NCBI GenBank assembly: GCA_016868035.1
Contig: VGID01000004.1
Location: 1-64,000, forward strand
Origin: Betaproteobacteria bacterium
GTDB taxonomy: Bacteria; Pseudomonadota; Gammaproteobacteria; Burkholderiales; SG8-41
DNA length: 64,000 nt
Reading direction: 5' to 3'
Shown here: one piece after another, positions 2,352 to 40,697 of the stretch
Position numbering within the stretch: the stretch's first letter is position 1
Layout of the letters: every line of letters starts with the position of its first letter
The notes under the pieces: model-generated
Databases searched by the model: none
What the model was told of the DNA's origin: nothing
What the model saw: the letters and a program-made list of their open reading frames with translations, nothing else
Translations under genes and position numbers: made by a program

Positions 2352-3014
2352 ATGGGTTTGGACCTGGTGTTGCGCCATATTGTAGCCGCACTCCTGTTCT
2401 TCCTCGCGACCGCCGCGGCGCACGCGGCGGACATCAACGTCGTCGCGCTCACCGCCGGCAAGGCGGTCGTGGTGGTGAACGGTGGCAAGCCGCGGACGCT
2501 CACCGTGGGGCAGACGACGCCCGAGGGCGTGAAGCTCATCGCCGCCGACAGTGCGACGGCAACCTTCGAGGTCGGCGGAAAACGGCAGACGCTCGCGGCG
2601 GGGCAGGGCGCGGCGATCGCGGCGAGCCCGCCGCCGCGCGGGGGAGGAAGCGTGACGCTCACCGCGGACTCGCGCGGCCACTTCTTCACCATGGGCGCCG
2701 TGAACGGAGTCAGCATGCGCTTCATGGTGGACACGGGGGCGACCGCGGTTGCGCTCTCGAGCGCCGACGCGCGGCGCGCGGGCGTCAACTACCTCTCCGG
2801 CATCCGCGCCTTCACCCACACCGCCAACGGCGTCGTGCCGGTCTACCGGGTCAAGCTCGACTCGATCACGATCGGGGACATCACGCTCACCAGCGTGGAC
2901 GCCGTCGTCATCGAGGGCGAGCGGCTGCCCGTAGCTCTGCTCGGGATGTCGTTCCTCAACCGCATGGAGATGAAGCGCGACGGGCAGACGATGACGCTCA
3001 TCAAGCGCTTCTGA
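2352..3014 (+). CDS. Retropepsin-like aspartic protease family protein with signal peptide
   Basis: MGLDLVLRHIVAALLFFLATAAAHA signal; FMVDTGATAVALSSADARRAGV active-site motif; GMSFLNRME. Confidence 0.8.
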   Translation: MGLDLVLRHIVAALLFFLATAAAHAADINVVALTAGKAVVVVNGGKPRTLTVGQTTPEGVKLIAADSATATFEVGGKRQTLAAGQGAAIAASPPPRGGGSVTLTADSRGHFFTMGAVNGVSMRFMVDTGATAVALSSADARRAGVNYLSGIRAFTHTANGVVPVYRVKLDSITIGDITLTSVDAVVIEGERLPVALLGMSFLNRMEMKRDGQTMTLIKRF

Positions 3015-3243
3015 CGAAGCGTGGCTCGTTTCTCGTGGCTCGTGGCTCGTGACTTGCAAGCCGCACGCGCCAGGCGGTAAGGCACAGGCGGTGGTCAGGG
3101 CGTTTGGGGTGGAGACCCCGCCCGTTCGTTGCCGGCCGCTCAGGGCGCGCCGCACCGGATTCTCCGGCGCCCCGCGCCGGCTTGTGGAAAACCCCGCCGT
3201 CGAATAACGTAAAGGGGCCCGCCTGCGCAGGCGGGCTGCGGGA

Positions 3244-3918
3244 ATGCGATCGGGCATGGCGCAACGGCAGAAAACGGCTACGGCGGGGCACGACGAGCTG
3301 CGCGAGCGGATCGTGGATGCCGCGATCGCGCTCGCCGAGCGGGACTCGTGGGAAGCGGTGCGGCTGCACGACGTCGCCGACAGCCTGGGCGTCACCCTCG
3401 ACGAGGTGCGCCGCCAGTTCCGCGAGAAGGAGGACGTGGTGGACGCCTGGTTCGACCGGGCCGACGCCGCCATGCTGCGGGAGTCCGAGGCGCCGGGCTT
3501 CCGGGAGCTGACGCCGCGGGAACGCATCCACCGGCTCATCCTGACGTGGTTGCGCGCGCTCGCGCCGCACCGCAAGGTTACCCGGCAGATGATCTACGGC
3601 AAGCTCGAGCCGGGGCACGTCCACATCCTGTTCCCCGGACTGATGCGCGTGAGCCGCACCGTGCAGTGGGTGCGTGAAGCCGCCCACCGCGATGCCGCGT
3701 ACGTGCGCCGCGCGCTCGAGGAAACCGGGCTCACCACGATCTACCTGATGACCTTCTTCCACTGGATGACCGACGACACGGCGGGATCGGAAGCGACCGG
3801 CCGCTTCCTCGACGGCTGGCTCGGCCTGGCCGAGCGCCTCGACCGCGCGGTCTACGGCACGCCGCGCGGCGGCGCGGGCGAGGCGCCGCCGCCCCCGGCG
3901 GAGCGGTCCGCAGGCTAG
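3244..3918 (+). CDS. TetR/AcrR-like transcriptional regulator
   Basis: N-terminal HTH-like LRERIVDAAIALAERDSWEAVRLHDVADSLGVTLDEVRRQFREKEDVVDAWF. Confidence 0.7.
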   Translation: MRSGMAQRQKTATAGHDELRERIVDAAIALAERDSWEAVRLHDVADSLGVTLDEVRRQFREKEDVVDAWFDRADAAMLRESEAPGFRELTPRERIHRLILTWLRALAPHRKVTRQMIYGKLEPGHVHILFPGLMRVSRTVQWVREAAHRDAAYVRRALEETGLTTIYLMTFFHWMTDDTAGSEATGRFLDGWLGLAERLDRAVYGTPRGGAGEAPPPPAERSAG

Positions 3919-29946: not shown

Positions 29947-30165
29947 ATGAAAAAGCTGCTTGCTGCGATTTTCTTGGGCATGTTCGCGCTCACCATGACC
30001 GTCACCCCGGTCGCGATGGCCGCCAAGCACGAGATGAAGAAGGAAGAAATGAAGGCCGAGAAAAAGGCCGAGAAAAAGGCCGAGAAGAAGGCCGAAAAGA
30101 AGGCCGAAAAGAAGGGCGAACCCAAGAAGGAAGAGAAGAAGGGCGAAGGCAAGAAGGACAAGTAA
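29947..30165 (+). CDS. Secreted Lys/Glu/Ala-rich low-complexity protein, copy B
   Basis: MKKLLAAIFLGMFALTMTVTPVAMAAKHEMKKEEMKAEKKAEKKAEKKAEKKAEKKGEPKKEEKKGEGKKDK; paralogous to copy A. Confidence 0.65.
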   Translation: MKKLLAAIFLGMFALTMTVTPVAMAAKHEMKKEEMKAEKKAEKKAEKKAEKKAEKKGEPKKEEKKGEGKKDK

Positions 30166-30197
30166 GCGCCGGACCGGCTTTTTTTCCGGTTCGATTG

Positions 30198-30226
30198 GAG
30201 GGCAGGGTCAACACCCTGCCCTTTTC
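30198..30226 (+). terminator. Intrinsic terminator
   Basis: gggcagggt-caac-accctgccc-tttt. Confidence 0.85.
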
Positions 30227-30300
30227 GTTTTGCAACCGGCGGCTGCGCAGGAAGCGCGTGATTGCTCCAGCCACTGGCGATACAATGCGGCCTCCACCAC

Positions 30301-30441
30301 ATGATCTGGAAGCCGCACGTTACCGTCGCCGCGGTGATCGAGCGTAGCGGCCGTTTCCTGCTCGTCGAGGAGCAGACCGGGCACGGGGGCCTCTACAGCC
30401 GGCCGGCCACCTCGACCCGGGGGAGTCCTTGATCCGCGCCG
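30301..30441 (+). pseudogene. 5' remnant of NUDIX hydrolase (nudJ-like) upstream of mnmA
   Basis: MIWKPHVTVAAVIERSGRFLLVEEQTGHGGLY, then one frame shifted QPAGHLDPGESLIRAV, then homology stops. Confidence 0.8.
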
Positions 30442-30524
30442 TTGCTTCAGTGCCCAATAACAAACTTCCGTGTGCCTCCGTGTGTTTCCGTGCCTTTGAA
30501 CATTTTTGAGGTAGCCTCGATTTC

Positions 30525-31673
30525 ATGGCGGGCAAGCGCGTGATCGTCGGCATGTCGGGCGGCGTGGATTCCTCCGTCGCCGCACTCCTGCTCAAGCAGC
30601 AGGGGTACGACGTATCCGGCCTGTTCATGAAGAACTGGGAAGACGACGACACCGACGAATATTGCAGCGCGCGCGAGGACCTGGTGGATGCGGTGGCGGT
30701 TGCCGACCGGATCGGCATAGAAATTGACGTCGTCAATTTCTCAAGTCAATACAGGGAACGGGTATTCAATGATTTCCTGCGGGAATACCAGGCCGGGCGT
30801 ACTCCCAATCCCGACGTCCTGTGCAACGCGGAGATCAAGTTCAAGTCCTTCCTCGACCACGCGCTCTCACTGGGGGCGGACTACATCGCGACCGGCCATT
30901 ACGCGCAGATCCGCCGCGCGAGCGGCGCCCACCAGTTACTCAAGGCCGAGGACGGCACCAAAGACCAGAGCTATTTTCTCTACCGCCTGACCCAGGATCA
31001 GCTCGCGCGAACCCTGTTCCCGCTGGGACGGCTCTACAAGCGCGACGTGCGCGAGATCGCGCGGCGCGAGGGGTTGCCGACGCACGACAAGAAGGATTCC
31101 ACCGGCATCTGCTTCATCGGCGAGCGGCCGTTCCGCGAGTTCCTCAGCCGCTATCTTCCCGACAACCCGGGAGAGATGTGCGAAGCGGAGGGACGCGTGC
31201 TCGGCCGTCATCAGGGGCTCATGTTCTATACGATCGGCCAGCGGCAGGGTCTGGGGATCGGCGGCCGGCGCGAGGGCGACGGCGAGCCGTGGTACGTCGC
31301 AGCGAAGGATCTGCAGCGCAATCGTCTCGTCGTGGTGCAGGGCCACGACCATCCAGCGCTCTTCTCCGGCCGCCTGGTCGCTTCGGAGCTGAACTGGATC
31401 AGCGGGAGCGCTCCGCATTGCCACTGGGTCTACGGCGCCAAAATACGCTACCGGCAGAAGGACGCGCCCTGCACCATCGCCGAGGTCAGCGCGGAACGCT
31501 GCACGATCGAGTTCGCCGAACCGCAATGGTCGGTCACCCCGGGCCAGTCGGTGGTGCTCTACGAAAGCCAGGTGTGCCTGGGCGGGGGCATCATCGAATA
31601 CGGCGAGCCGGCCGAGGACGCGGGTCGCAGAGATGCTTCCTGCCCGCCCGGCACTGAGCCCCCTGAAAGATAA
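30525..31673 (+). CDS. mnmA: tRNA 2-thiouridine(34) synthase MnmA
   Basis: [47 protein letters not shown]. Confidence 0.95.
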
Positions 31674-31674
31674 A

Positions 31675-31753
31675 GGCAGAAGGATGAAGGCGGAAGGCTG
31701 AAGGAAAAGATCGTTGGGTAGTCGGCATTTCTGCCTTCTGCCTTCTGCCTTAC
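31675..31753. repeat. Inverted pair of tandem arrays
   Basis: aggcagaaggatgaaggcggaaggctgaagg ... tctgccttctgccttctgccttac. Confidence 0.85.
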
Positions 31754-32364
31754 GAAGTCGGCGGGGTGGTATCCTTGAACGAGGGACGCTTCGCGAGCCT
31801 TTCGGCGAGCTTGCCGAGGTTCGGATAGGTCTTGCGCCAGGCGAGGTCGGGCAGCCGCAGGTCGAGAAAGCCGAGGCAGCAGCCGACGGCGATGTCAGCC
31901 AGGTTGTACTGCTCGCCGCCGCACCAGTTGCGCGTGCCCAGTTCCTCCGCCATCACTTCCAGGCTGCGGTCGATCTTGCCCTGCTGGCGTGCGATCCAGC
32001 CCGGGGACTGCGCCGTGGCCGAGCGCTGTTTTTCGACCCTTACCGCCACCGCGGCGTCCGTGCATCCGTCCGCCAGCGCTTCCCAGCGCCGCACCTGTAT
32101 GCGTTGGCGGGTATCCTCGGGGATGAGTTTCGCCACCGGGCTCGCGTTGTCGAGATATTCGACGATGACCCGGGAATCGAAGAGGTTGGTGCCATCCTCG
32201 GTAACCAGCACCGGCACCTTGCCGAGCGGATTGTAGGTCGGGACCTTGCTCGTCGCCTCGCCCGGCGGATCCACGACGAACTCGTACTCGATGCGCTTCT
32301 CCGCGAGCACGACCCGCACTTTGCGCGTGTACGGACTGGTCGGAGTTCCGATCAGCTTCATCAT
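31750..32364 (-). CDS. Glutathione S-transferase family protein
   Basis: MMKLIGTPTSPYTRKVRVVLAEKRIEYEFVVDPPGEATSKVPTYNPLGKVPVL. Confidence 0.88.
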   Translation of the reverse strand: MMKLIGTPTSPYTRKVRVVLAEKRIEYEFVVDPPGEATSKVPTYNPLGKVPVLVTEDGTNLFDSRVIVEYLDNASPVAKLIPEDTRQRIQVRRWEALADGCTDAAVAVRVEKQRSATAQSPGWIARQQGKIDRSLEVMAEELGTRNWCGGEQYNLADIAVGCCLGFLDLRLPDLAWRKTYPNLGKLAERLAKRPSFKDTTPPTS

Positions 32365-32555
32365 CGCGCTCTCGCTTCCGCCTCTCCAAAAAAGGGGGGG
32401 ATTATAGCATCGCGCCGCACGCCCAGCCCCCCGCCGGAAGGCTCAGCGCGAACCGCGAAAAAGAATATTCAAGCATTTTTCCCATTGCCTTTTCGCGTGT
32501 TGACTCCCGCGGAACAATGGTAGTACGCTGCGACCGGACTGCTCCTGGTTTACCG

Positions 32556-33329
32556 ATGGACACGATAAGCGAAAAATTCGTCCTCTACACACAGCCCGGG
32601 TGAAGCAGCTGCCTCCGAGCGAAAGAGTTTCTTTCGAAAAAAGGCATCGACTTCGTCGCGGTGGACGTGCTGAACGAGCCGCAGGGGCGAGAGCGGTTGC
32701 TCAAGCTCGGCGTGCGCAACGTGCCGGTCGTGGCGAAGGGCGGGCAGTACGTGTTCGGGCAGAATCTGGAGGACGTGGCCGAATTCGTCGGGCTGCACGG
32801 GACCGGACACACGCCGCTGCCTCCCGAAAAACTGATCGAAAAATGGATACTGGTCCTGCGCGCGGCGCAACGCTACGTGCGGCAGCTGCCGGACCGGAGC
32901 CTGAACGAGCGCGTCATCGAGAACCGCGACCGTTCGATCCGGCTCCTCGCCCACCATCTCTTCCGCATCGGGGAGGCGTTCCTGGAGACGGCCATCGACG
33001 GGGTCGAATACGCCGTGCAGCACGCCAACGTGCCGCCGAAGGACGGCACGTTCCTCACCGGCGACGAAATCGCGCGCTACGGCGAGACGGTGATCGCGCG
33101 CCTGCGCAAGTGGTGGGATGGCCTCGTCGACAAGTCGCTCTCGCGCAAGGTGAAGACCTTCTACGGGATGCAGCCGATGCATGTGGTGTTCGAGCGCTCG
33201 ACGTGGCACTCGGCGCAGCACGCGCGCCAGCTCATCCACATCCTCGAGCGCTACGGCATCGAACCCGAGCGGCGGCTCACCCCGGACGATCTCGCAGGAC
33301 TGCCGCTCCCGGAGCGGTTGTTTGAGTAG
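32556..33329 (+). CDS. Selenocysteine-containing glutaredoxin-like protein with C-terminal helical domain
   Basis: ATG at 32556; in-frame TGA at 32601-32603: MDTISEKFVLYTQPG(U)SSCLRAKEFLSKKGIDFVAVDVLNEPQGRERLLKLGVRNVPVVAKGGQYVFGQNL... Thioredoxin-fold homology continues in the same frame on both sides of the TGA. Confidence 0.88.
32601..32646 (+). promoter_or_regulatory. Putative bacterial SECIS element
   Basis: TGA followed by lower stem TGCC/GGCA, internal loop, upper stem CGAAAG/CTTTCG with apical loop AGTTT starting 22 nt after the TGA. Confidence 0.7.
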
Positions 33330-33714
33330 ACCGCCTCTCACCGCGGAGAACGCGGAGGACGCGGAGGAACAACAAGAAACAAGAAATAACCGCCAAGGCG
33401 CCAAGAAGAAACGAAATTGAAGCGCCAAAGCCGCGAAGAAGCTCGAAAATCAAATCGGTTGCAAGCCAGGAAAAAGAACAACCCGGCTTATTCGAGTTTT
33501 TCCGTTCCCAGCTCCCTGCGCTCCTCCGCGCCCCCCGCGTCCTCTGCGTTGAGAGGTTCGTCTTTTGCTTGGTGCCTTCGCGGCTGATGCCCGGCGAGAA
33601 TAGCGCAACGCGCGGAGTTGAATTAAACTACAGCTTCCTCGACGCTTAACTCGCACGCCCGCGCAGCATGACCGCAGTGATCACCCGTCGCCTGCCGCTC
33701 GGCTGCTGTCCGCC

Positions 33715-35139
33715 ATGCTGAATACGGCACCTGCCGCGCGTCGCGCGATCCCCTCACTCGACAAGCTGCTCAGGCTCGAGGGTATCCAGTCGCTGATCGC
33801 GCGCCACGGGCGCGCGCTCGTGACCGCCGCCGCCCGCGGCGAGCTTGCGGCGCTGCGCGCCACGCTGTCACACGGCTCCGCCGTGCAGGGCGCGTTCGAC
33901 GAGGCCGCCTTCGTCGCGCGCTGCGCGGAGCGCGTCGAGCGCGAGATCGCGCCTTCGTTGAGGCCGGTCTTCAATCTCACCGGCACCGTATTGCACACCA
34001 ATCTCGGCCGGGCGCCGATGCCCGAGTACGCCGCCCGGGCGGTGGCGCGCGCGATGACACGGCCCGTGAACCTCGAGTTCGACCTGGGGGGCGGGGAGCG
34101 CGGCGAGCGCGATCGCCACGTCGAGCGCTGGCTCACACGGCTCTCCGGTGCGGAAGCGGCGCTGATCGTGAACAACAACGCGGCGGCAGTCTACCTCGCT
34201 CTGAACACACTCGCGCTCAAGAAGGAAGTTCCGGTCTCGCGCGGCGAGCTGATCGAGATCGGAGGCGCCTTCCGCATGCCGGACATCATGGCGCGCTCCG
34301 GGGTCAAGCTGGTGGAAGTGGGCACCACCAACCGCACGCATCTCAAGGACTACGCGGCGGCAATCGGCCCGCGCACGGCGGCCCTGATGAAGGTCCATAC
34401 CAGCAATTACGCCATCGAGGGTTTCACTGCCTCGGTTGCGGAGCGCGATCTCGCCGCGCTCGCCCGCAAGCATCGCATTCCGTTTATCGTGGATCTCGGC
34501 AGCGGCATACTGGTCGATCTCGAGGAGTACGGGCTACCGCACGAGCCGACGCCGCGCGAGGCCCTCGCGAGCGGCGCCGACCTCGTGACCTTCAGCGGGG
34601 ACAAGCTGCTGGGCGGCCCCCAGGCCGGCCTCGTCGTGGGACGCGCCGATCTCGTGGAACGCCTGCGCCGAAATCCGATGAAGCGCGCGCTGCGCGTGGA
34701 CAAGATGACGCTTGCGGCGCTGGAGGCGGTGCTCACCGCCTACGCCGACCCGGGGCGCCTGCGTGCCGCCCTTCCCGCGCTCGCTGCGCTCACCCGGCCG
34801 GCGGACGAGATCCGCGAGCAGGCCGGGCGCCTGTTGCCAGCGGTGACCGCCGCGCTGCGGGGCAAAGCCGAAGCCGAGATCCTCGCGTGCCGCAGCCAGA
34901 TCGGCAGCGGCTCGCTGCCGACGGATCTCATTCCGAGCGCGGCGATTGCGGTCAGCGTTTCCGGCAAGCGCCGCGGCGCGCTCGCCGCCACGATCGCCTC
35001 CGCATTCCGGGCGCTACCGGTTCCGGTGATCGGGCGCGTGAAGGACGGCGCGTTCGTCATGGATCTCCGCTGCCTCGATCACGAACAGGAGTTCGTCGAG
35101 CAACTGAAGCATCTGGATCTGAAGGGCATAGAAGAGTGA
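33715..35139 (+). CDS. selA: L-seryl-tRNA(Sec) selenium transferase
   Basis: [63 protein letters not shown]. Confidence 0.95.
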
Positions 35140-35205
35140 CTCGTTACTCGTTTCTCGTTCTTCGGAGGTGAAAGACGAGTAACGAGCAACGAGAAACGAG
35201 CGACG
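35138..35205. repeat. Inverted pair of tandem arrays between selA and selB
   Basis: gactcgttactcgtttctcgtt-cttcggaggtgaaag-acgagtaacgagcaacgagaaacgagc. Confidence 0.9.
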
Positions 35206-35206
35206 A

Positions 35207-37222
35207 ATGATAGTAGCCACCGCAGGACACATCGACCACGGCAAGACGCTGCTCGTGAAGGCGCTGACGGGCGTGGACACCGACCGCCTTCCCGAGGAAA
35301 AGGCGCGCGGGATTTCGATCGACCTCGGCTTTGCCTATCTGCCGCTAGACGGGGGCGGGCTGATCGGATTCGTGGACGTGCCGGGTCACGAGCGCTTCAT
35401 ACGGAACATGCTGGCCGGCGTGTGCGGCATCGATTTCGCGCTGCTGGTGGTCGCCGCCGACGACGGCGTCATGCCGCAGACCGTGGAGCATCTTCACATC
35501 CTCGATCTCCTCGATATCCGGCACGGGCTCGCGGTGATCACCAAGACCGACCGCGCCGCGCAGGAGCGCGTGCGGCAGGTCGAAGGCGAGATTGCCGCGC
35601 TGCTCGCCGGCACGCGCCTAAATAAGGTCCCCGTGCTGGCGGTCTCCGCCGTGACCGGCACGGGTATCGAGGACCTGCGCGCGCGGCTCACCGCCGCCGC
35701 ACGGGCACAAGCCGCGCGCCGGACGGAGGGGCAGCATTTCAGGCTGGCGATAGACCGCGCATTCACGGTCGCAGGGAGCGGAACCGTGGTGACGGGAACG
35801 GTCTTCAACGGATCGGTCGCTGTGGGCGACAAACTGGTCGTTTCTCCCGCGGGCACGCCGGTGCGCGTGCGCGGGATCCAGATCCGCGGGCGTGGCGCCG
35901 AGCACGCGGCCGCGGGGGAGCGCTGCGCGCTCAATCTCGCGGGCAGTGATCTGGATACGGTCGCGCGCGGCGATTGGGTGTTGGGTGCGGCAATCCACGC
36001 CCCGACGCAGCGTCTGGCTGCGCGCGTGTCGGTGCTTGCGGCCGAGCCGCAAGCGCTCAAGCACTGGACCCCGCTGCATCTGCATCTCGCCACGGCCGAC
36101 GTGACCGCGCGCATCGCGCTGCGTGGAGGCCAGTCCGTCGCGCCGGGAGCCGCGGCAACCGCGCAGCTCGTGCTCGACCAGCCGATCGGCGCGCTCCACG
36201 GCGACCGTTTCATCCTGCGCGACCAGTCGGCGCGCCGCACGCTCGGCGGGGGCATCGTGCTCGATCCTTTCGTTCCGGCGGCGCGGCGCGCTGCGTCCGA
36301 GCGCGCCGTGGAGATGGCAGCGCTGGAGGAAGAAACCCCCGAAGCTGCGTTCTCCTCGCTGCTCAAGCACCCGGACCGCGGCGTGGACATCGCGCGTTTC
36401 GAGAAAACCTTCAACCTGACCACGGAGCGTACGGCGAAGATCTGCGCGCAAGCCGAAGTCGCGGTGCTGGGAAAAGAGCACCGTGTCGCGATCCCGCGCG
36501 TGCACCGCGAGAAGCTGCGCGAGGCGATCCTTGCGGCGCTCCGCGAATTCCACCGTGCGCAGCCCCAGGCGCTGGGCAAGGAGATGGAAGCGCTGCGTGC
36601 CGCGGCTGCGCCGCACCTGCCTCCCGAGGCCTTCCAGTTCCTGCTGCGCGAGCTCGCCGACGAGCGCAAGCTCGAGGTCGCGGGCTCGGCTGCGCGCCTG
36701 CCGGGCCATGACGCAACCTCCAATCCCGCGGACGAGAAGATGTGGCGGAGCCTGCTGCCCCTGCTCACGGCCGGAGCCTTCGCGCCGCCCGCCGTCGCCG
36801 AGCTCGCCGCGAAGCTCGCGACGAAGGACACGGTGCTCCGGGACTTCCTGCACCGCAAGAGCCGCAGCGGCGAAGTGCTGAGGGTGACGAAGGACCGGTA
36901 CTATCCGCGCGCGACCCTCGCGACATTGGCGGCCACGGCCAAGGCGCTGGCGGACGCGGGAGGCATGTTCACGGCCGCGCAGTTCCGCGACGCCACGGGG
37001 ATCGGCCGCACGCTGGCGATCGAAATCCTCGAATTCCTCGACGGGCTCGGCGTCACGCAGCGGGTGGGCGACGCTCGCAAGATGCGCAAGGACTTCGTGC
37101 CCATCCTCGGCCCGGCATCTCCCGCCGCGCGCCCTGCCCCGGGGGCGGCGGCGGGGGCCAAGGCAGGATCTAAGCCCGTCGCGCACGGGGGGCGGCGCCC
37201 CTTCCCGCAGGGCAAGCGCTGA
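35207..37222 (+). CDS. selB: Selenocysteine-specific elongation factor SelB
   Basis: [48 protein letters not shown]-terminal winged-helix region. Confidence 0.95.
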
Positions 37223-37233
37223 GGACGGGTTTC

Positions 37234-38151
37234 GTGGCACAGCAGCCCTTTGACGCGATCGTGATCGGGGAAGGAATCTGTGGGCTCACCGCGGCGAATG
37301 CGCTTGCCCGGGCCGGCTGCAGGACGGCGACGCTGGAGGCCCAGCTCTTCGGGGGCCTGGTTCTCAACGTCAACGAGCTCGATCCCGCCCCGGACGAGCG
37401 CGCGGTATCCGGGGCGGAATTCGCAACGGAGTTGATGCAGGCGAACGCGGAGCTCGGCGTGGCGAGCATACAGGAGGCGGCGAGCGCAGTGCACGACCGG
37501 GAGGGGCTGCGGGTAGTCGCGACCGCGAGTGGCCGCTACCCCGCGCGCCACGTCGTGGTGGCATCCGGCGCACGGTTGAGGAAGCTCAACGTTCCGGGGG
37601 AAAACGAGTTCGAGGGCCGCGGGGTGTCGAGCTGCGCCGACTGCGACGGGCCGCTCTACCAGGACGAGGAAGTGGCCGTGGTGGGCGGGGGCGACTCCGC
37701 ACTGCAGGAAGCACTGGTGTTGGCGAAGTACTGCCGCAAGATCCATCTGATTCACCGCGGCGAGCGATTCCGCGCACAGGAGCAGTTCGTCGAACGAGTG
37801 AGCGCCCATCCCAGAATTTCCGTCGCGTGGAACACCACGGTCGAGGCGATCGGGGGGAACAAGACCGTCGAACGCGTGCGCATCCGGCGCGCGAGCGCCG
37901 GAGCGGAGGAACTTGCCTGTGCCGGAGTATTCGCCTACGTCGGGCTCGCGCCGAACTCCGAGTTTCTCCCGCCGGCCATAACCCGTGACGCCGGCGGATT
38001 CGTGATCACCCAGGACACGCTCGAGACCGCGGTGCCCGGCATCTGGGCCGTGGGCGCCGTGCGCAGCGGCTATTCCGGGCTGCTCACCGACGCGATGGAC
38101 GAGGCGCGGCGCGCTGCCCGGGTTATCGCCATGCAGCTCGGCAGAGCCTGA
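37234..38151 (+). CDS. Thioredoxin reductase-like FAD/NAD(P)-dependent oxidoreductase
   Basis: FDAIVIGEGICGLTAANALARAG; GVSSCADCDGPLYQDEEVAVVGGGDSALQEAL; GTG start. Confidence 0.87.
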   Translation: MAQQPFDAIVIGEGICGLTAANALARAGCRTATLEAQLFGGLVLNVNELDPAPDERAVSGAEFATELMQANAELGVASIQEAASAVHDREGLRVVATASGRYPARHVVVASGARLRKLNVPGENEFEGRGVSSCADCDGPLYQDEEVAVVGGGDSALQEALVLAKYCRKIHLIHRGERFRAQEQFVERVSAHPRISVAWNTTVEAIGGNKTVERVRIRRASAGAEELACAGVFAYVGLAPNSEFLPPAITRDAGGFVITQDTLETAVPGIWAVGAVRSGYSGLLTDAMDEARRAARVIAMQLGRA

Positions 38152-38412
38152 GCAGCGGGCGCGGCGCGCCACGTAGCAGCGGATCGAGTTTCAGCCGCTG
38201 ATGAACGCCGATAGACGCCGATAAGAACCAAGGATTGAACCGCCGAGGCGCCGAGAGAATCCAATCAAACCGCAGATGAACGCGGATAAACGCGGATATT
38301 TAGACAATAAAAGTTCCTGACACCTTTTTCTGATGCACCTTTTTCTGATGACACCTTTTTCTGACACTTTTTCTGGCTTTCAAGCCGACTTCGGGCAAGC
38401 TACTTGGCCGTG

Positions 38413-38418
38413 TAGAAT
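38413..38418 (+). promoter_or_regulatory. Extended -10-like TGTAGAAT upstream of selC
   Basis: ccgTGTAGAATgg ~105 nt upstream of selC. Confidence 0.35.
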
Positions 38419-38480
38419 GGCGCCCTGCGCCGCGCGCGTTACAAACGCGCGGTGGAACGCCTGAAAGGATGGTCAGGTTA

Positions 38481-38516
38481 AGGAACCTTTGCGCCGCTTG
38501 CGGCGCAAAGGTTCCT
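38481..38516. repeat. Near-perfect palindrome immediately upstream of selC
   Basis: AGGAACCTTTGCGCCGC-TT-GCGGCGCAAAGGTTCCT: perfect 17-bp arms, 4 nt before the tRNA. Confidence 0.9.
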
Positions 38517-38520
38517 AAGC

Positions 38521-38615
38521 GGAAGGGAATCGCCCCCGGTGGGGCGGCCGGACTTCAAACCCGGTTGGGGCCGCTGGCGGTCCTGTGTGGGTTCGACTCC
38601 CACTCTCTTCCGCCA
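38521..38615 (+). tRNA. selC: tRNA-Sec (anticodon TCA), CCA encoded
   Basis: GGAAGGGAATCGCCCCCGGTGGGGCGGCCGGACTTCAAACCCGGTTGGGGCCGCTGGCGGTCCTGTGTGGGTTCGACTCCCACTCTCTTCCGCCA; 8-bp acceptor stem, TCA anticodon, long variable arm. Confidence 0.95.
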
Positions 38616-38661
38616 TCTGTTCCGCGTCGATGCGCTGGCACGGCCTCGATTCCGCGGCTGG

Positions 38662-39804
38662 CTAGCCACCCAATACTCGCTGCACCGTCCAGAACAGGCC
38701 CACCGCCGCGACGGCCATCGAGGCCGGGGTGACGACGCGCCGGCGGTACCAGGTCTTGTTGCGTCCCCAGATGCCGACCGCCAGATAGGCGAGCGCAATC
38801 ACCGCAAGCTGGCCGAGCTCGACGCCGATGTTGAAAGTCACCAGAGCGGGCACGAACTGCGCGCGCGGCAGTCCCACCTCGTGCAGCACGCCGGCGAATC
38901 CGAGCCCGTGCAACAGGCCGAATCCGAACACCACGAGCGCGCGCCACGGCTTGAGCTGCGGGGTCAGGATGTTCTCGACCGCGACGTACACGATGGACGC
39001 GGCGATGAGGGGCTCGACGATCGAGGATGGCAGCGACACGACACCGTAAACCGAAAGGGCGAGCGTGACCGAATGCGCGACGGTGAAGGCCGTGACCTGG
39101 ATCAGGAGCGGCGCCATGCGGGTGCTCAGCAAGAACAGCCCGAGGACGAACAGGATGTGGTCGAGCCCCTTGGGCAGGATGTGCGTGAACCCGAGCACCG
39201 TGTAGTCCAGCAGGACATCGGCCATCGTGCGCTTGTCAAATCCCTTGCCGAGAACGTAGGCCGGGCTGCTCTCGCCGTTCTTGAGCCATACCGCGTCGAG
39301 GCGCTCGCCCTCGCGCACGCGAAGCACGCACGACCCGAAACGCGCGGCGTAGCGGAACGCGAGTTCCCTGGTTGACGCAGGAGCCGTGCCGGAGAAGCGC
39401 ATCGTGGTCTGTCGCGAAAGCGCGACATCACCCACCGGCGGAACCACGATCGTGGTCAGTGCAGGACGGGCGCGCGCGCCGTCGAAATCGACCACGATTC
39501 CGTCGAGATAGCGCCCGGCGTGCGCGCTGATCACCGTGCCCAAGTCCTCGGGCGGGAGCGCGCGCAAGCGGTTGTAGTAAAGAGCGTTGGGCGATTCGTC
39601 GGTATCACGATGCACGGGGCTGACTTCCGCGATGACGGCCTCCATGTTGACGACGATCTCGAGCTCGTATCGCCCGTCCGGCGAGAGCGTGAGCGTAGCG
39701 ACCGCCGGGCGGATTTCATGGGCGAGCGAAGATGCCGCCTGACCGAAAATCAGCCATGGCAGGCAGACCATAAACAGGGCGAATTTCCAGACCCGCGCCG
39801 GCAT
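38662..39804 (-). CDS. HupE/UreJ family membrane protein
   Basis: GFTHILPKGLDHILFVLGLFLLST; FGFGLLHGLGFAGVL. Confidence 0.82.
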   Translation of the reverse strand: MPARVWKFALFMVCLPWLIFGQAASSLAHEIRPAVATLTLSPDGRYELEIVVNMEAVIAEVSPVHRDTDESPNALYYNRLRALPPEDLGTVISAHAGRYLDGIVVDFDGARARPALTTIVVPPVGDVALSRQTTMRFSGTAPASTRELAFRYAARFGSCVLRVREGERLDAVWLKNGESSPAYVLGKGFDKRTMADVLLDYTVLGFTHILPKGLDHILFVLGLFLLSTRMAPLLIQVTAFTVAHSVTLALSVYGVVSLPSSIVEPLIAASIVYVAVENILTPQLKPWRALVVFGFGLLHGLGFAGVLHEVGLPRAQFVPALVTFNIGVELGQLAVIALAYLAVGIWGRNKTWYRRRVVTPASMAVAAVGLFWTVQRVLGG

Positions 39805-39851
39805 CTACGCTAACTCGGTACGCAAAGATCCTATGTTAAGCTGGTTAGCGC

Positions 39852-40697
39852 ATGCGAAAAAGCTGTCTTGTCGCCAGCCGTTCGCGCCGAAAATGTGTGC
39901 AACGCATCGTACTGTTGCTCGCGGTGCTCTGCTCGCTGGCTGCGCGGCCGACGACCGGTCACGAATTCTGGATCGAGCCCAAGCAATTCCGCCCGGCGCC
40001 CGGGGCGAAAGTTCCGATCACGCTCTACGTCGGGCAGTACTTCATGGGCAATTCGTATCCCTTCTTGAGCGACTCATTCGAGCGCTTTTACTACGTCGAT
40101 GCGCGCGGCACCGAGAACATCCGCGGCGTGCTGGGCGACGACCCTGCCGCGACGCTCACCATCCGCGCGCCGGGCCGTATCTGGATCGTGCTGCGCAGCG
40201 CGTACTTCGATCTTTCCTATGACAAGCCCGGCGAGTTCGATGCGTTCCTTGCCAGGGAGGGAATCGACCACTTGGTCCCGCGCGAGCGGCGGGGCCCGCT
40301 CCCGGTCAAGGAGACCTACTCGCGTTCCGCCAAGTCGCTGCTGGTTGCGGGTGATCCGCCATCCGGTTCAGCGCCCGATCGAGCGTTCGGCCTGCCGCTG
40401 GAGCTCGTGGCCGAGTCCGACCCCTATGCCGGCAGACCGGCCGAATTCAGGGTGAGACTGCTCTTCCGCGGTTCCGCGTTGCCAGGCGCGCTGGTCACCG
40501 CCTTCCACAAGGCGGTCCCGGACCGGAGGCTGGAAGCTCGTACCGATGCGTCCGGCCGCGCGCGGCTGGCGCTCGACCGGGACGGGCTCTGGCTGCTGAA
40601 CGCCGTGCATCTGCTTCCGGCGCAGAAGAAGGGCGGAGCGCTGTGGGAAACCCTGTGGGCGTCTCTGACCTTCGAGCTGCCAAGGCGCAAAGAGTAG
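39852..40697 (+). CDS. DUF4198 domain-containing protein
   Basis: GHEFWIEPKQFRPAPGAKVPITLYVGQYFMG. Confidence 0.75.
   Translation: MRKSCLVASRSRRKCVQRIVLLLAVLCSLAARPTTGHEFWIEPKQFRPAPGAKVPITLYVGQYFMGNSYPFLSDSFERFYYVDARGTENIRGVLGDDPAATLTIRAPGRIWIVLRSAYFDLSYDKPGEFDAFLAREGIDHLVPRERRGPLPVKETYSRSAKSLLVAGDPPSGSAPDRAFGLPLELVAESDPYAGRPAEFRVRLLFRGSALPGALVTAFHKAVPDRRLEARTDASGRARLALDRDGLWLLNAVHLLPAQKKGGALWETLWASLTFELPRRKE

Follow-up and report, generated by a model that had tools for sequence, protein, structure and literature searches.

Glutaredoxins that carry selenocysteine (Sec) are an established protein family (PMC13188914; PMC1088965). One described Sec-containing glutaredoxin (PF00462, UxxC; WP_010943784.1) shares both the glutaredoxin family and the UxxC position of Sec with the protein described here, but it is listed simply as a glutaredoxin, with no mention of a DinB half (PMC13188914). 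The UXX-star families (NF041114, NF041211, NF047338, and NF041212) similarly resemble glutaredoxins in fold, and their first redox position is also occupied by Sec. Their models, however, describe single domains of ~70 aa, whereas our protein has two domains, and we rejected membership in these families after scores below the curated cut-offs (45.3 against 66, 34.4 against 97, 33 against 100, and 25.6 against 72). The DinB/YfiT S-transferase-like superfamily, which includes BstA-H, mycothiol transferase, and mycothiol-dependent maleylpyruvate isomerase (2nsf), shares the four-helix bundle and three-His metal site, but its solved members matched by our protein have neither a glutaredoxin domain nor Sec. 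Finally, full-length glutaredoxin–DinB (Grx–DinB) proteins occur on plasmids of Variovorax, Caballeronia, Burkholderia, Roseomonas, and Rhizobium, where they carry the annotation “glutaredoxin domain-containing” or “DinB family.” These are 34-44% identical to our protein but have Cys instead of Sec at the same column (C-S-S-C), and the plasmid stretches examined contained no sel genes. Sec-glutaredoxins have thus been described before, and Cys versions of the fusion have been annotated, but its Sec version was absent from the selenoprotein lists and family models searched. It scores below the cut-off of every NCBIfam model, the term “DinB” is absent from both a 2026 review of prokaryotic selenoproteomes (PMC13188914) and the deep-Sep paper, and targeted searches of the accessible literature found no report of it.

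We analyzed a window of 64,000 nt, meaning the whole stretch of DNA, with positions counted from its first letter; all window features given below lie on the forward strand. The gene at 32556-33329 almost certainly encodes a genuine selenoprotein in which a Sec-glutaredoxin (U16-S-S-C19) is joined to a DinB/S-transferase-like domain with a three-histidine site. This confidence applies to its identity as a selenoprotein of such architecture and not to its mechanism, and it derives from sequence comparisons of five kinds: Sec/Cys exchange, the SECIS element, the Sec machinery, domain content, and synteny. The reading frame extends from an ATG at 32556 to a TAG at 33327-33329 and is interrupted by a single TGA, which forms codon 16 (32601-32603). 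With TGA translated as Sec (U), it yields 257 aa, and this translation bears out the original prediction of a single frame continuing through TGA into S-S-C. The TGA encodes the opening residue of the U-S-S-C redox motif, and the resolving Cys19 is encoded at 32610-32612. Counting against this reading, we found no clear Shine-Dalgarno sequence upstream of the ATG. Purifying selection acts on the frame 5′ of the TGA (pN 0.23, pS 0.66). As had also been anticipated, an ORF listing under translation table 11 returned just a 222-aa frame starting at a GTG (32661-33329). The gene adds a selenoprotein architecture in which a Sec-glutaredoxin is joined to a putative metal-site DinB domain, and its active site is lost when gene callers shorten the frame.

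Homologues were gathered from relatives of the source genome and from species-level genomes, giving 76 distinct full-length proteins; many of the source records are metagenome-assembled, and some record titles are unreliable. At the active-site codon, 66 genes have TGA, 10 have the Cys codon TGC, and none has anything else, while Cys19 is invariant (76/76). The original prediction had placed the TGA at the first redox Cys and proposed an alignment of homologues at this codon, which thus revealed a clean exchange between Sec and Cys and excludes a sequencing error. On a tree, the Sec/Cys label requires ~3 changes (bootstrap 2-3), and the well-supported branches alone are compatible with one origin. 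Sec and Cys versions both exist in nature, so the question “why selenium?” lends itself to direct testing.

Were the TGA a true stop, in a pseudogene or through a sequencing error, the real gene would be a DinB-only protein beginning at GTG 32661, exactly what a standard ORF caller returns. However, this is very hard to reconcile with a TGA common to 66 distinct homologues, with selection on the frame upstream of it, and with a SECIS element downstream of it, and we rejected both error and pseudogenization on the strength of the homologues that keep the codon. Reading through an in-frame TGA would equally be expected if UGA had been reassigned to another residue throughout the genome. Yet TGA is the ordinary stop of 7 of the 14 genes checked in the window (those for ClpA, ClpS, MalS, SelA, SelB, the thioredoxin reductase [TrxR]-like protein, and TcuA). 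This indicates that the code is standard, and reassignment, which we consider to have virtually no chance of being correct, was ruled out.

The candidate SECIS element is a 17-nt hairpin, CGAAAGAGTTTCTTTCG (32620-32636), which starts 16 nt past the TGA and consists of the stem arms CGAAAG and CUUUCG around the loop AGUUU, with the loop G at 32627. It is present with at most one mismatch in all 66 TGA genes (L084 and L085 differ by one base, having CGAAAGAGTATCTTTCG) and is kept even by TGA paralogues that are merely 26-30% identical. By contrast, the 10 Cys genes lack the hairpin while encoding the same KEFL-type peptide, mostly through AAG GAG TTC CTG codons. Codons 23-27 (AAA GAG TTT CTT TCG) are invariant across the TGA forms wherever the residue is retained, whereas outside them the share of the top codon has a maximum of 0.88 and a mean of 0.64. 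Their pS is 0.000 in TGA forms, compared to 0.60-0.66 elsewhere in the same genes and 0.54 for the same codons in Cys forms. Given the window's own codon usage, the joint chance of these five codons is 1.2e-4 per gene. The protein would fix the KEFLS peptide, and base pairing together with the loop G would then fix every third position. Few examples show so plainly how a SECIS element and the encoded protein can both constrain one set of codons.

The bSECIS model specifies a stem of 4-16 bp, a loop of 3-9 nt with a G within its first two positions, a distance of 16-37 nt from the UGA, and a minimum free energy at or below −7.5 (PMC13188914). Our hairpin fits this model with a stem of 6-7 bp and a loop of AGUUU (or GUU) 22-23 nt from the UGA. 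The energy limit is reached by the 47 nt following the UGA (−14.0 kcal/mol) but missed by the 24-nt core alone (−6.5). Because 4.3% of random synonymous recodings were as stable as the hairpin, a test by energy only is weak, and the case for a SECIS element rests on conservation. No Rfam SECIS match was found at window positions 30000-40000, and a search of the window with the hairpin sequence gave no further match apart from the hairpin's own reverse complement, at 3 mismatches. The frozen hairpin offers a ready probe for more members of the family; when used to search its own genome for further selenoproteins, it found only the Grx–DinB gene. A distant Sec form in complete genome G193 (L118) lacks the frozen hairpin and has another stem-loop after its TGA, possibly an alternative SECIS element.

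The neighboring genes named in the original prediction are all present: selA, for L-seryl-tRNA(Sec) selenium transferase (33715-35139; TIGR00474, 577 bits against a cut-off of 268), selB, for the Sec-specific elongation factor with its winged-helix domains (35207-37222; TIGR00475, 458 bits against 242; PF09106/PF09107), and a tRNA-Sec with anticodon TCA (38521-38615; ARAGORN; RF01852, 77.8 bits against 47). A gene for a TrxR-like flavoprotein with a CxxC motif (SCADC) lies at 37234-38151 and scores 241 bits with TIGR01292, below the cut-off of 343. The selD gene is found on another contig of the same genome and has its own TGA in HGGG-U-GCKLPP, so that the genome contains selA, selB, tRNA-Sec, and selD. 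The order Grx–DinB, selA, selB, TrxR-like gene, tRNA-Sec is repeated in ~20 loci, where selA is preceded by an insert of variable genes 0 to ~7 kb long, and in most relatives the TrxR-like gene follows selB. Its product is a possible dedicated selenoprotein reductant or selenite reductase. SelB scored above its cut-off in nearly all relatives with the TGA form, whereas no such match was found in Cys-form genome G051; likewise, SelA is present in the complete Sec-form genome G193 and absent from the complete Cys-form genome G426.

Synteny thus upholds the proposal that this is the cognate selenoprotein of the locus, although the genome encodes other candidates too, namely the TGA-containing selD and several UGSC-family genes with an in-frame TGA. 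A Sec formate dehydrogenase was rejected as the main user of the sel genes, as the matches resembling its alpha subunit have no internal stop. Beside selD is a rhodanese-type gene (L097, ~2540-3618) that appears SelU/YbbB-like by eye, and the organism may therefore also make selenouridine.

The glutaredoxin domain (PF00462; residues 9-66, 32580-32753) scored 52.8 bits against a cut-off of 22.9, confirming that glutaredoxin-like sequence flanks the TGA on both sides, and was matched in 44 of 44 members. At the expected cis-Pro site, Pro57 is invariant in 76/76 homologues, as are U/C16 and C19. The glutathione (GSH) site of classical glutaredoxins consists of TVP plus GG-x-D-D; in our protein VP is present and an FGQNLED-like sequence takes the place of GGxDD. 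The C-terminal half, previously described as helical, His-containing, and unlike a plain glutaredoxin, proved to be a DinB_2/STL-like four-helix domain (residues 102-226, 32859-33233) with putative metal-site histidines. The window protein narrowly misses the PF12867 gathering cut-off (24.0 bits against 24.8), and 36 of 44 diverse members match this model at E ≤ 0.001. An AlphaFold2 model built with 44 homologues was confident throughout (mean pLDDT 94.9, pTM 0.91). In Foldseek searches, its N-terminal half matched the glutaredoxins 3zit and 7c10 (0.87-0.92), and its C-terminal half matched the DinB/YfiT proteins 6iz2 (TM-score normalized to target 0.85), 1rxq, and 2nsf.

The model, these structural matches, and three conserved histidines agree with the four-helix bundle and three His ligands that define the DinB/STL superfamily. 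The putative metal ligands are His134 (32955-32957), conserved in 76/76 homologues, and His218 and His222 of an H-x3-H motif (33207-33221), conserved in 72/76 and 73/76. Three histidines have been proposed as metal ligands in BstA (PMC5815605), and H134, H218, and H222 are likely their counterparts. Divergent paralogues (L083-L086, 26-30% identity) keep the TGA, UxxC, and hairpin and have lost part of the His triad, and genome G009 holds several Grx–DinB copies.

In the mechanism we propose, SelB and tRNA-Sec of the same locus would decode UGA codon 16, aided by the hairpin at 32620-32636. U16 would then attack a disulfide or another oxidized or electrophilic substrate, and C19 would resolve the product at U16, either a selenenyl-sulfide or a mixed (seleno)disulfide. 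The neighboring TrxR-like flavoprotein or glutathione may recycle the protein; the former is at least as likely as the latter, given that GG-x-D-D is not evident and that NrdH-like models score well, though the flavoprotein might instead serve in selenite reduction. The DinB half would bind a divalent metal, along with the substrate or else a low-molecular-weight thiol. BstA-H, which belong to the DinB superfamily, are metal-dependent thiol transferases (PMC5815605), and the function we envisage is selenol/thiol-disulfide exchange or metal-assisted thiol transfer. We tentatively prefer, at just short of an even chance, a redox or thiol-transfer enzyme whose two domains act on one substrate.

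The main rival reading, a serious but lesser prospect, is a stand-alone NrdH/Grx-like thiol-disulfide reductase with the DinB half as a structural, dimerizing, or thiol-binding appendage. NrdH-type and YruB-type models score near UXX-star, a TrxR-like gene adjoins selB, and the divergent paralogues retain UxxC yet lose some His ligands, all of which would suit such a reductase. However, His134, His218, and His222 are kept by 95-100% of members, and neither domain is found without the other in the Grx–DinB family; this retention and co-occurrence suggest that the metal site is used.

A rather unlikely further reading is a Sec-dependent member of the DinB/S-transferase-like superfamily in which the glutaredoxin half presents a selenol or selenenyl-sulfide directly to a metal-activated substrate on the DinB half. 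This would be a two-domain seleno-thiol transferase or isomerase of catabolic pathways, with a functional link to UGSC selenoproteins. Cys forms and paralogues often adjoin TctC/Bug binding proteins and catabolic genes, a weak hint of a catabolic or detoxification substrate, weak because these bacteria have many genes of this kind. The same surroundings, with no obvious metal-resistance genes, argue against the handling of a metal, metalloid, or organometal electrophile with Sec and Cys as ligands, as suggested for UXX-star. We consider this role improbable; the best match to a seleno-model is Uxx_star (45 bits), and UXX-star and related families have been tied to metal and metalloid processes (PMC13188914), but the protein scores below every cut-off for those families.

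Across the phylum, the Sec-Grx–DinB architecture is rare: of 398 genomes sampled, 3 gave a match at E ≤ 1e-20. In the window's own bacterial family it is common, with matches in most sampled members, and it is often present in multiple copies. Dozens of environmental beta-proteobacterial genomes have it alongside sel genes, some with several copies, and annotation of this group therefore probably underestimates its use of selenium. Close homologues (L063 and L064, 67-68%) were also seen on contigs labeled Deltaproteobacteria and Candidatus Binatia, reflecting either lateral transfer or mis-binning.

Outside the window, the source genome contains six UGSC-family matches with an in-frame TGA (G000: C2, C8, C12, and C45), indicating further candidate selenoproteins beyond SelD and Grx–DinB. 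In 12 of 67 loci, a UGSC-type selenoprotein gene or its partner domain is located close to Grx–DinB, and several arrangements occur. Such neighbors occur at L036:10029-11573 and L046:10140-11690, in L034, L037, L048, L067, and L078, and near paralogues in L086 and L091. The two may be linked in function, or both may just tend to cluster around sel genes. The UGSC genes of these lineages have their own repeated hairpin after the TGA, CCCGCCGTGTTGCGGG or a close variant, found in L007, L033, L034, L037, L046, L067, and L078, with a stem unlike that of Grx–DinB.
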